A DNA stretch of 60,064 nt, taken from assembly GCA_937958645.1 (NCBI GenBank), contig CALGNI010000051.1:1-60064 (forward strand), given 5' to 3'. Positions 4,807 to 37,789 of the stretch are shown piece by piece. Source of the stretch: Candidatus Absconditabacterales bacterium. GTDB lineage: Bacteria > Patescibacteriota > Gracilibacteria > Absconditabacterales > Absconditicoccaceae. The translations under genes and the position numbers were made by a program. Below the pieces are notes generated by a model, which worked only from the letters and a program-made list of their open reading frames with translations, was not told the origin of the DNA and did no database searches. Within the stretch, counting starts at the first letter, position 1. Each line of letters starts with the position of its first letter.

Positions 4807-4811
4807 AGATT

Positions 4812-5164
4812 TTCTCATGACATAAGCCCAGTTCTGTTTCTCGATGACATTTCTCTCGCCCTGCTTATAGCGGGGATCTAGCACTACCCCCGTATACACG
4901 GGATAAGCTTGCATCAAAAAGGGTTTACCACTGGCAGAAACATCATTACTGCTCAGGCAGAGTATCACGACGAAGCGCAAACCTCCTCTTTTCACCTTTC
5001 CCCCGCAACAACTAGTGTGCGGGGTAGTATAGTCTCTGTGGCACTTTCCTTTGATCTGCTTTAGTTACAAGTAACCAAAACGGATATCCAATAGCCGTTA
5101 GCTACTTTTATTGTTGTGATGCTGGGACTTTCCTCTCCATAACAGAGCGTCACCACCATGAGAA
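4812..5164 (-). ncRNA. RNase P RNA (bacterial type A-like)
   Basis: Catalytic RNA that trims tRNA 5' leaders, about 353 nt. On the minus strand it shows the 5' signature GAGGAAAGTCC, the central GAAAGTGCCACAGAGA block, a GGTGAAA segment, and the 3' signature ACAGAACTGGGCTTAT. The ends TTCTCATG and CATGAGAA pair to form helix P1, which fixes the boundaries. Its protein partner is at 28037-28414. An apparent 65-codon reading frame inside it (4798-4995, minus) is not a gene. Confidence 0.93.
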
Positions 5165-5227
5165 CCATGTTTTTATGGAAGATAAATGGGATAGCAAGAA
5201 AATAAAACATAAAAATAAAACATATCT

Positions 5228-32204: not shown

Positions 32205-34472
32205 ATGATGGCAGAAGAGAAAAATCCTAAAAACCCAAAAGACCTCAATGTGAAAAAAGTAAGTTCATCAAGCAAACCAAAGTTTGATGATATTTATGAT
32301 GCCATCAATATTGATGATGTTGACAAAAAAATCAGCAGCGATCTTTCTGAAAAACCAAAAAAGAAAAGTATTAAGAAAAAACCTAACATCAATATCAAAG
32401 ACTCTGGTCATATGATTGATGGTATTTGAGATCTTGATGCTTACATTGCCAAAAGAAAAGATACAAGCTCAGCTAAAAACATGGAAAGACCGAAAGAAGA
32501 ACTTAACTTCCTTACTCAAGATGATCTAGATATTAGATCATTGGAGAATATTTATGCAATAGTGCCAAATAAAAAAGGCGATCATAAGCTGGTTTGGAAA
32601 AAAGACACTGCCCCAGAAGATCTTTGGGAAGATGACAAATGAAGAAGCAAAGGTACAGTATATGTAAAAAATGGAAAAAAGATCTATGATGTTGCATTAG
32701 ATTTCAAAAGACATGCAACACTCAAAAATCAAAATGATGATCGTTTTGATGTATGGCTTATTGATGAAGAAAAAGATTTAGATAACCAACTTGACGCAAT
32801 CAAAAATGGTCTTGGTGGAGGAAGAAATTTTGAAGACCCACTGATCATTGATAACCACAAAAAGAAAACTAAGAAAAAAAGTGCTCCAAAAAGCAAAGAT
32901 GACTCTATCAAAGCAGCAGAAATAATAAGTCTAAAAGCTGAAAAAGAAGCAAAAAAGAAGATAAAAGATAACAGCGCTGATAAAGAAAAAGCCAAAGAAG
33001 GAGCGATACAGAAAGCTAAAGAAGAAGTTAAACTCAAGGAAGCTGCTTCTGCAAAGGCTAAAGCTGATGAAGATGCTAAACTCAAGGATGAAGATGCTAA
33101 ACTCAAGGATGAAGCTGCTGCTGCAAAAGCCAAAGCTGATGAAGATGCTAAACTCAAGGAGGAAGCTGCTGCTGCAAAAGCTAAAGCTGATGAAGATGCC
33201 AAACTCAAGGAGGAAGCCGCTGCTGCTAAATCCAAAGCTGATGAAGAAGCCAAACTCAAGGAGGAAGCTGCTGCTGCAAAAGCCAAAGCTGATGAAGAAG
33301 CCAAACTCAAGGAGGAAGCCGCTGCTGAAAAAGCTAAAGCTGATGAAGATGCCAAACTCAAGGAGGAAGCCGCTGCTGCAAAAGCCAAAGCTGATGAAGA
33401 TGCTAAACTCAAGGAGGAAGCTGACGCAAAGGCCAAAGCTGATGAAGATGCTAGAATAAAAGAGGGAGCTGTTAAGGCTAAAGCTAAAGCTGATGAAGAA
33501 GCTAAAAATAACATTGATGAGCCTAACTCCCTATGAATTGATATTGGATCCTTGACTGATATTGAAGAAAGTCCTCCAAAAATATCATCAAAAACGAACA
33601 CCCCAAAAGAAACCAAGAATAATTCAATAAAAGCTGAAAGCAGTACGTCAACATCTACTAACACACTCATTGATCTAGATGCGCTCACTAATCTGGATGA
33701 AACTCCTTCAAAAAAGATCAAAAAACCTGAAATCGTAGTAAACGAAGTAGTAAACGAAGTAGTAAAAGAAAATATAAAAGTCGAATCAGAGCAAATCAAA
33801 GAACCAGCAGCTTCCAAAGTAACTAAAGATATACCAGCGGTTGAAAAATATTTAGCAACAAGTAACGCTGATATTTCAACCGACTTCTTTGAAGATGACG
33901 ATGATGACGAGGAAGAAACATCTGGTGCTTGGAAAAAACGACTTATCAGACTCTTAGGTTTGGTGTTTTTGGGAGTACTGATTGGACTTGGACGATTGTT
34001 GTGGAAAGTAATGTTTGCAGATTCAAACACAAGAGAATTAGACCTTGATGATATCTCTGGAGAAGTCGTTACCATTCCTGGTGCAGATAGTGATGATTCA
34101 CAATGATCGAATAATAATAATAGATGAAATGATAACGATGAAGTAGATACAGAACAATACGACGATCTCATCGCTCTCCCTAATCCAAATGGAGATATTG
34201 ATCTATGAACTGATGGAGAGCTTATTGAACTACCAGAAGAAGTCTCAGAAGAATACCTTATTACTCTTAGACAAACTATAAGAACCTTAAAAAAAGAAAG
34301 CCGCACCCTTCTGAATAAATCTAGACTGATCAATAATGCTGATGCTCTAAGATTCGCTATCGCAGCTTACTCTCAAGCGAATGATCTGGTTGAAAAATTG
34401 GATGAAAATGAAAGTCAAGTAACTGCAGAACAACTAGAAAAAATTATCGAAAAAGTTCGTTTGTATATTAAG
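32205..34472 (+). CDS. TolA-like Ala/Lys/Glu repeat membrane protein
   Basis: 755 aa as written. Acidic/basic low-complexity head; at about residues 260-430 some ten 14-15-residue repeats (KADEDAKLKEEAAAAKA) forming a long helix; one TM segment near residue 590 (LGLVFLGVLIGLGRLLW); and an acidic outer tail. Such helices span the envelope or hold proteins at the pole; function unknown. At 34438-34444 a run of seven As ends the protein as ...NYRKSSFVY. The neighbouring frame would give an amphipathic helix ending in TAA at 34495, so a one-base slip is likely. Confidence 0.7.
33050..33490 (+). repeat. In-gene 42-45 bp tandem repeats
   Basis: About nine imperfect copies of a 42-45 bp unit (AAGCTGATGAAGATGCTAAA core) encode the repeat helix. 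The same repeat produces a 534-codon open frame on the minus strand, which is an artefact. Confidence 0.85.
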
Positions 34473-34557
34473 TCGGTTAGAGATTTGATTGGGTAAATTA
34501 GGTAAATTAGACGAGTTAGCTAAGTAACATATATCAAAGGCAAAGTGATTTGGTTTT

Positions 34558-35213: not shown

Positions 35214-36194
35214 TTATTTTATCCACTCATACACCCCAGCCTTGATACTAATCAAAGGCATTGAGCTGGCTCTCATTTGAGAGATGATTTTGGTTCGAAT
35301 CTGCGCTAGAGAACTATATAGTGCTGGATCCTCCAAGAAATGCTCGTCAAAATATTGGAGAAGGTCTTTTGATACTGCCATCAAATCAGAACCTCATTGA
35401 TGAAGATCTTCAAAGATTTTTATGGTATTTTCTAGTTCTTTAGCTTTCATTCACTCAACGATACCCGCTAGTGTTTGATGAGAAACTACCCCAAGGAAGG
35501 TGCTCACATTTTCTGCATTCACTTCTCCCAAGATACTCACCTGCTCCAAATATTTGATCGCATCACGTTGTCCTCATTGGGCGAGCTTAGCGATCATAGC
35601 AAGACCATCGTCTGTCGTTTTGATTTCCTCTTCCGTTGCGATATTTTTAAGATTTGAGACAATATCCTGTATACTATGATTGCGGAAATTAAACACTTGG
35701 CAACGAGAGAGAATGGTATCAGGGACTTTGTGAATTTCGGTGGTAGCTAGGATGAACATAAGATATTCTGGTGGTTCCTCCATGATTTTTAACAATGCAT
35801 TGAAGGCACCCTTACTCAGCATATGGACCTCATCGATCACATAGACTTTTTTCTTCAATACTGTCGGGACATAGAGTGCTTTTTCTATGATTTCTTCACG
35901 AATATTATCTACACCCGTGTGAGAAGCTGCATCGATCTCAACATAATCTAAAATCTTCCCAGAATCGATACGCTCTGCTAATTCTAGATCAGGCTTGGTA
36001 AGGAAGTTTTCATCGTTTACTGCCTTTGCCAAAAGTCTTGCAGTAGATGTTTTTCCTGTACCTCTTGGACCATAAAACAAATAGTTATGATTTACTTTTC
36101 CTGAAGCTAACTGAGCTTTGAGTACATCAACGATATGGTGTTGTCCTACGAGGCTATCAAAGGAATCTGGACGGTATTTGAGGTAGAGGGACAT
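35214..36194 (-). CDS. DNA polymerase III subunit gamma/tau (short)
   Basis: 326-aa clamp-loader ATPase: Walker A YGPRGTGKTSTARLLAK (near residue 41), DEVHMLSKGAFNALLKIMEEPP, sensor ATTEIHKVPDTILSRC. The family's four-Cys zinc module between Walker A and EIDAASHTG is absent (no Cys in that stretch), and the tau tail is missing; it ends soon after domain III begins. Four UGA glycines, including AQGGQRDA; TAA stop. Confidence 0.93.
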
Positions 36195-36518: not shown

Positions 36519-36553
36519 AAAAAAATACCAAGAGAGGTATTCCCTCTCTTGGT
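36519..36553 (-). terminator. Terminator of the noncoding RNA
   Basis: Perfect 11-bp stem (ACCAAGAGAGG / CCTCTCTTGGT, 5-base loop) followed on the minus strand by ATTTTTTT. Confidence 0.92.
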
Positions 36554-37030
36554 CTGAAATCATCATTGATTTCATTGATATCGTGACACGTGGTCCCTAC
36601 TACTTTGATATCATGAACAGGTGAAAGTGATATTTCGCACGGTCGTGCATATTCGAAATAGCTCTTATACCCATTCTATCCGGTTACCATTCTTAGGATT
36701 CACTACGTTCTAATGTTGTAGTTTAGTGTAAACGATTAGATCGTTTATTTTTTGTTTTTGATTTTTGTTTTGTTTTTTTTTGTAATCTTTTTGTTTTGAT
36801 TTTTTTGTTATTTCATTAGAATCTCGAAAACAGAAGTTTTCTCATAATGCCTAACTACCAACTTGGTTGGAGCTGAGAGAGTAGGACTCTCCAAAAAGTA
36901 ACCAAATCTTAGCAAATCAGAGAGTAACGTTGATGCTTTATACTCTGATATACTAAGGAGTATATTGATACTAAATAGACGAATATCTATCTAACATCAA
37001 TACACTTCATTTCTTAATGACCTCATCAAC
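36519..37030 (-). ncRNA. Structured noncoding RNA, about 510 nt, unknown family
   Basis: Transcribed leftward between a consensus promoter and a strong terminator, with no credible ORF. On the RNA strand the 5' domain closes with GTTGATG / CATCAAC (37024-37030 with 36929-36935) around a long hairpin and a TACTC / GAGTA hairpin. Then come a GGAG/CTCC arm, GAAAAC-TTCT-GTTTTC (36826-36841), a 70-nt A-rich single-stranded linker, AAACGAT / ATCGTTT (36730-36746), and a 3' domain with nested ATTTCG and GCAC stems (36632-36659). I see no tRNA-like end, so not an ordinary tmRNA. Confidence 0.6.
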
Positions 37031-37036
37031 ATATAT

Positions 37037-37064
37037 ATTATACATATAATACTTTATCTGTCAA
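37037..37064 (-). promoter_or_regulatory. Consensus sigma70 promoter for the noncoding RNA
   Basis: Minus strand TTGACA, 16 bases, TATAAT. The predicted start is near 37030. It also sits back to back with the gene at 37073. Confidence 0.85.
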
Positions 37065-37072
37065 ATTTTTGC

Positions 37073-37789
37073 ATGTTTTATTCTCAACAATATGTACACA
37101 CAACAAATAACGGCAACAATGCGTTAAGTTATGAGGAAAGAAAGGTTAAATTATGAAAAGCAGAACTTACCCTCCCCTACTTAAAACAAATAAATAAAGC
37201 CAATCAGATAGAATTGTGAGATCATTTGGTGCTAGAAGAAATCGATGAGGACTGAATCTTACATAGTCATACCGGATTGAAGCATCTGTATCAAATACAG
37301 GATCAATCACAATATATTTTCGATAATCACAATCATGCTCTGTATTTTTGGCTCAAACGAATCAGAAAACACCAAGGAGAAAAAATTCATCTTATCCACA
37401 TAGATCAACACTCTGATCTTAATATCCCTAGCACCGTATTCGATCCTTGACTCCTGCATGATGATGAATATATACGGAGATACACAAATTTTGAATGTCA
37501 AATATCCAGCTTCATCCAACCCTTTCTTCAAAGCTTTCTTAGCGTTGAATTCACCTGGATCAAGTCAGAACAAGAACTCTTAGATTTTGTCTATGAATAC
37601 TGAAATACTCCCCTCCTGCTTGATATCGATATGGATTTTTGGGCACCAGGGATGTCTCCTGCTTCACCCGATAAGACCATGAGTATCACAAAAGATCTGA
37701 TTGCTCATGCCTCGCTCACCACCATAGCTACCTCTCCGATGTTTATTGATCAGGAGTTGGCGCTTGAGTATGTGAGAGAACTTTTATAG
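37073..37789 (+). CDS. UPF0489-like protein
   Basis: 238 aa. The pair of motifs FDNHNHALYFW (near residue 82) and LIHIDQHSDLNIP (near 105), and later LLLDIDMDFW, match the UPF0489 pattern (arginase-like metal-binding His/Asp sites are suspected). Function unknown. Five or so UGA glycines; TAG stop. The ATG at 37073 lies 9 bases beyond the -35 box of the divergent RNA promoter. Confidence 0.6.

Follow-up and report, generated by a model that had tools for sequence, protein, structure and literature searches.

What does the minus strand encode between a UPF0489 family gene and a dnaX-like gene of this Absconditabacterales genome, where a promoter and a terminator enclose about 510 nt without a credible open reading frame? 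In the 60,064-nt stretch of DNA that was analysed (hereafter called the window), the sigma-70-type promoter TTGACA-16-TATAAT occupies positions 37037..37064 of the minus strand and agrees with the consensus at 12 of 12 positions, with TTGACA at 37064-37059, a spacer of 16 nt, and TATAAT at 37042-37037. Transcription is predicted to start at approximately 37030. The intrinsic terminator (36519..36553, minus strand) is composed of an 11-bp stem at 36553-36527 and a T tract, ATTTTTTT. In shuffled versions of the region, the chance level is 3.1 promoter-like and 0.2 terminator-like matches. The whole predicted RNA therefore covers 36519..37030 on the minus strand, i.e., 512 nt. The UPF0489 family gene (37073..37789, plus strand; PF12640, 2.6e-9) is the divergent neighbour that marks the conserved location, and the gene for the dnaX-like clamp loader subunit (35214..36194, minus strand; PF13177, 5.9e-35) lies outside the transcript, downstream of the RNA on the same strand and approximately 330 nt beyond the terminator. 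Elsewhere in the window, the plus strand at 32205-34496 encodes a 763-residue protein, likely a coiled coil, in which long repeats rich in Lys, Ala, and Glu (KAKADEDAKLKEEAAAA) are accompanied by a hydrophobic segment.

The predicted RNA is present in four of the five genomes of the genus, namely, that of the window (G000), G002, G003, and G004. A BLASTN search of 59 related genomes detected true relatives in G003 and G004, and the G002 copy, which was missed by BLASTN, was found via the neighbourhood of the UPF0489 gene. The RNA is a single-copy element. All four copies are divergent from a UPF0489 gene (PF12640), beyond which a Dus gene is located, and dnaX is downstream in the window and in G004, as well as in G002 after an intervening open reading frame on the opposite strand. 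In G003, the gene next to the RNA belongs to the inositol monophosphatase family and is not dnaX. Every copy has a TTGACA -35 element, a TATAAT or TATTAT -10 element, a spacer of 16-17 nt, and a perfect terminator hairpin, so that the promoter and terminator assigned to the RNA by the initial annotation are both conserved in the three homologues. The fifth genome of the genus (G001, 65% complete) has neither the RNA nor UPF0489. The A-rich BLASTN matches in other genera are mostly coding or low-complexity sequences, and none of the four that were examined in full has the P1-P4 frame described below; GGTTAC and GGTAAC were not found as a pair in the UPF0489 neighbourhoods of other genera. Another structured-looking intergenic stretch, which follows an A-rich run and is unrelated to the RNA, was observed in G009:C1 just below 410472 (ACCGGTAGAGGG ... 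CCCTCTACCGGT).

Judging from these homologues, the locus is not a protein gene. No open reading frame is common to them under genetic code 25, in agreement with the earlier view of the approximately 510 nt, and the weak matches fall in several frames of both strands, which is the expectation for aligned noncoding DNA. On the other hand, the 512-nt predicted transcript folds with an energy of -145.1 kcal/mol, compared with -94.1 +/- 6.5 kcal/mol for shuffled sequences (z = -7.9). After removal of the terminator and the 5' hairpins, the conserved core of approximately 300-350 nt has a z value of -4.2 in the window sequence and values of -5.3, -4.4, and -6.5 in the three homologues. Separate minimum-energy folds of the four RNAs agree on the helices, and P6 and P8 fall in the same alignment columns across these independent folds; the RNA is structured, as had been proposed from the window alone.

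The first approximately 125 nt of the RNA are variable among the four homologues. In the window, this 5' part takes the form of two long hairpins (36908..37006; all positions within the RNA refer to the minus strand), which are absent from G003 and G004 and have different counterparts in G002. Helix P1, which is predicted in all four sequences, is formed by a 5' strand at 36893..36906 (UUUGGUUACUUUUU) and a 3' strand at 36679..36692 (GAAUGGUAACCGGA) in which GGUAACC is invariant; the core of the pairing is between GGUUAC and GGUAACC, with additional flanking pairs, and three columns are changed on both sides. P1 closes a four-helix junction with hairpin P2, hairpin P3, and stem P4. P2 (36875..36891) has a 7-nt loop at 36880-36886 (UCCUACU) and compensatory changes in two of five columns, and P3 (36854..36873), the length of which varies, has them in two of the four columns compared. 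The 5' strand of P4 (36814..36853) consists of UAGG, CAUUAU, a local hairpin insert at 36826-36841, and UUCUAAUG, and its 3' strand (36694..36715) consists of CAUUAGAA, GUAGUG, and CCUA, with an invariant CCUAAG. P4a is invariant, and compensatory columns are observed in P4b (two) and P4c (four). The outer P4 extensions of G002 (CUAC/GUAG and CUAUUUUAUU/AAUAAAAUAG) were assigned by eye, and the minimum-energy fold of G002 favours a local alternative there.

The loop of P4 (36716..36813) is A-rich and G-poor, with 66 A and 3 G residues among 98 nt, and includes a small hairpin, P5, at 36729-36747. Across the four homologues, this loop is 58-98 nt long with 56-67% A and 3-4 G residues, and it cannot be aligned; i.e., its composition is kept while its sequence is not. 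The initial annotation described a closed 5' domain and a 3' domain separated by a 70-nt A-rich linker. Both domains were recovered, whereas the linker was not: the A-rich stretch (36813-36716) is the P4 loop and lies within the domain that P1 closes (36906-36893 paired with 36692-36679). On the 3' side of P1, three hairpins precede the terminator, namely, the long hairpin P6 (36615..36676), with two compensatory columns in P6a and seven in P6b; P7 (36576..36613); and P8 (36555..36574), with three compensatory columns. The terminator stem is a perfect 11 bp in all homologues and has seven compensatory columns.

Because the G004 sequence is displaced by 2 nt in the MAFFT alignment at the P7 contact, pairs were counted on explicitly listed strands. 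With strands taken by hand from the folds and the terminator excluded, standard pairs occupy 294 of 310 pair cells (94.8%) when each 5' strand is matched with the 3' strand of its own sequence, a count from four sequences of one genus that gives limited covariation statistics. In the control, in which the 3' strands were swapped between species, pairing was 77-81% in all nine derangements. Compensatory change among homologues, which the initial annotation had named as a check on the structure, was observed outside the terminator in 28 columns that are changed on both sides with the pairing kept, and these are distributed over P1, P2, P3, P4, P6, P7, P8, and a tertiary contact.

This contact is formed between the loop of P2 and one side of the loop of P7 (AGUAGGG at 36595-36601 in the window). 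The P2 loops are UCCUACU in G000, UCCUUCU in G003, UCCCUCU in G004, and ACCUUCU in G002, and the corresponding P7 loop sides are AGUAGGG, GGAAGGG, AGAGGGG, and AGAAGGG, which gives seven pairs in each of the first three RNAs and six in G002. In G000, G003, and G004, the site that matches at seven of seven positions is unique within the RNA and sits at the homologous position. Two columns of the contact covary. The predicted pairing ties the 5' and 3' domains together, and the loop-loop contact could be formed within a molecule or between molecules.

The locus very probably encodes a functional structured RNA. Our main reading, to which we assign a probability of roughly 0.75 from sequence comparison, is that of a stand-alone, trans-acting structural RNA that is new to Rfam and, as far as searched, restricted to the genus. 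Two observations weigh against it: G001 carries no copy, and so narrow a range is unusual for an RNA with a housekeeping role. The alternative that survives best, a clearly improbable one, is a trans-acting antisense regulator, i.e., a large sRNA that base-pairs with mRNAs through its A-rich region or its loops. Such an RNA would have its own promoter and terminator, as observed here, and the long unpaired stretch would be on offer for pairing. However, that stretch is of low complexity and its sequence is not conserved, which makes the antisense role less likely, and the conserved folded body fits a structural role better.

The distribution of the RNA was searched with a 5' motif, GGTTACTNNNNGGNNAGNNNNNCTNNNNCNGC-N(4-30)-GTTAGGC, and with a covariance model built on the 3' half (36701-36551). 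In a genome collection of 84,980 species, the 5' motif was found in only three records, all of which are known homologues, and a looser 5' pattern detected only the four known copies among 353 genomes of the class. In the same number of class genomes, the covariance model also detected only the four, apart from a weak match in G236 (E = 0.014) that lies inside an apparent ABC transporter gene and was rejected. With laxer filters, nothing convincing was found in 40 genomes of the family, the remaining matches being weak (E of 0.2 or worse). The RNA appears restricted to one Absconditabacterales genus as far as searched, and a distant relative with unrelated sequence may be missed by such searches. 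Literature searches turned up no report of an RNA of this kind from these bacteria. The narrow distribution is one of two points in favour of a mobile element, or a phage or plasmid remnant, in which the RNA would be a ribozyme or a replication RNA; the other is that ROOL RNAs are encoded in phages and prophages (PMC12286853). This origin is very unlikely, however, since the single-copy RNA occupies the same locus between housekeeping genes in four genomes, and viral contigs, phages, and plasmids gave no match.

The conserved neighbourhood raises the question of whether the RNA acts in cis on dnaX as a leader or attenuator, given that dnaX is encoded downstream of it in the same orientation in G002, in G004, and in the window. 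In G003, the downstream gene is a different one, which is why the RNA is not considered a dnaX leader; moreover, a strong terminator ends the RNA well ahead of dnaX, and the opposite-strand frame intervenes in G002. A cis-acting role is thus most unlikely.

The stand-alone RNA was also compared with the known families. At the gathering threshold, none of the 4227 families of Rfam 15 matched the RNA locus; the sole passing match in the window is a class A RNase P RNA on the minus strand at 4807-5165, which scores above the gathering score. When the search at the locus was relaxed to an E value of 10, matches to a microRNA (mir-2804) and to snoRNA, leader, and sRNA families appeared, all of which are implausible and far below threshold, so that the earlier failure to match the RNA to any known class stands. 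The ROOL, GOLLD, and OLE models gave no match on the locus at the gathering score or at E values up to 10, nor did the homologues match any of the three at E values up to 1, where again only weak matches to implausible families appeared. The RNase P model (RF00010) does not match at the locus, the genuine gene being that at 4807-5165, and the identity was rejected. No match to the 6S model (RF00013) was found at the locus. Two loci that score under the Rfam cut-off, G000:C78:26715-26869 and G003:C7:35987-36142, are probably diverged genes for 6S RNA.

Neither RF00169 nor RF01854, the two SRP RNA models, matches at the locus. SRP RNA is likewise unmatched in the class, where RF00169 was searched in 11 genomes and RF01854 in 21 (G000-G012 and G036-G043), and the control genomes do match; either the SRP RNA of this class is strongly diverged or it has been lost. 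That it is unaccounted for is the ground for regarding the present RNA as some other diverged housekeeping RNA, above all SRP RNA, a highly implausible identity. The domain IV signature is absent from all four RNAs, and the RNA itself is absent from sister genera in which the need must be the same. The 6S candidates of G000 and G003 and the RNase P RNA are separate genes.

The least credible reading is that of a strongly diverged tmRNA, or a piece of a split tmRNA, that replaces the normal one, with the A-rich loop as the mRNA-like part. This identity was prompted by the presence of SmpB in G000, G002, and G003 when the tmRNA model scored above its cut-off in G001 and in other genera, yet not in G000, G002, G003, or G004. 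It was dropped once the 3' half of a normal tmRNA, with the T arm GGGTTCGACTCCC and CCACCA, was found in G003, broken by a contig end. Because that half sits at the contig end, the missing tmRNAs of the genus members are probably due to assembly breaks. RF00023 gave no match in the window and none at the RNA locus in the genome search, ARAGORN detected neither a tRNA nor a tmRNA in the window, and the T-loop motif GTTCRANYC is absent from all four homologues, whose A-rich loops share no conserved tag reading frame. The initial annotation was right in setting the RNA apart from a plain tmRNA. The tmRNA genes of the family are repeatedly located at or across contig ends (L070, which is the end of G003:C1, L072, L075, and L077), and this recurrence at ssrA suggests a repeated sequence or an integration site.

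If the RNA is a trans-acting structural RNA, it would be made constitutively at a high level, as the perfect consensus promoter suggests, and would fold into a compact body. It might then work in trans, with the body serving as a scaffold on which the A-rich loop is displayed or within which it is enclosed, either for a protein or, as for ROOL and GOLLD, in a homo-oligomer of the RNA. This mechanism, which is drawn by analogy, is a tentative proposal. A bolder and rather unlikely version is that these ultra-small candidate-phylum bacteria possess a new ornate RNA class, unconnected in origin with ROOL and GOLLD, in which a pseudoknotted body, alone or with protein, would form a particle that holds the flexible A-rich loop.

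Structured RNAs that are both large and stand-alone are rare; GOLLD, ROOL, and OLE, the structures of which were recently solved, reportedly form RNA-only homo-oligomers. Judged from its sequence and homologues, the RNA described here is a new family of a known general kind, a rating adopted because no new mechanism is demonstrated. With a covarying long-range contact and a single locus shared by four species of ultra-small, small-genome bacteria, the new family would provide a compact, independent test of the role of such RNAs.

Among the well-known RNAs, 6S RNA is similar in being a stand-alone gene with a promoter and a terminator; however, the RNA here lacks the 6S layout of one long hairpin interrupted by a central bubble, and a weak 6S candidate lies elsewhere in the genome. 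The length is comparable to that of tmRNA, in which two structured parts likewise flank an unpaired stretch; the tRNA-like domain and the tag frame are, however, absent here, and the genus has a real tmRNA. OLE likewise is large, adopts a structured fold of its own, and has dimer-forming relatives (PMC12286853), but the RNA here has no match to the Rfam OLE model. ROOL and GOLLD consist of compact domains with kissing loops and a variable, disordered linker inside a homo-oligomeric cage (PMC12286853). They differ from the present RNA in size, as the conserved core here is approximately 300-350 nt long, whereas the ROOL studied measures 659 nt and GOLLD is larger. They also differ in setting: the RNA here has no Rfam match and is located between housekeeping genes, not in phages or viral contigs, and ROOL is often found near tRNA islands, whereas no tRNA was detected by ARAGORN in the window. 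What they share, as predicted here from sequence alone, is a large stand-alone RNA with separate helical domains, a long-range loop contact, and a variable unpaired stretch, and the RNA of this genus may be regarded as resembling ROOL and GOLLD in outline, by analogy and without homology.
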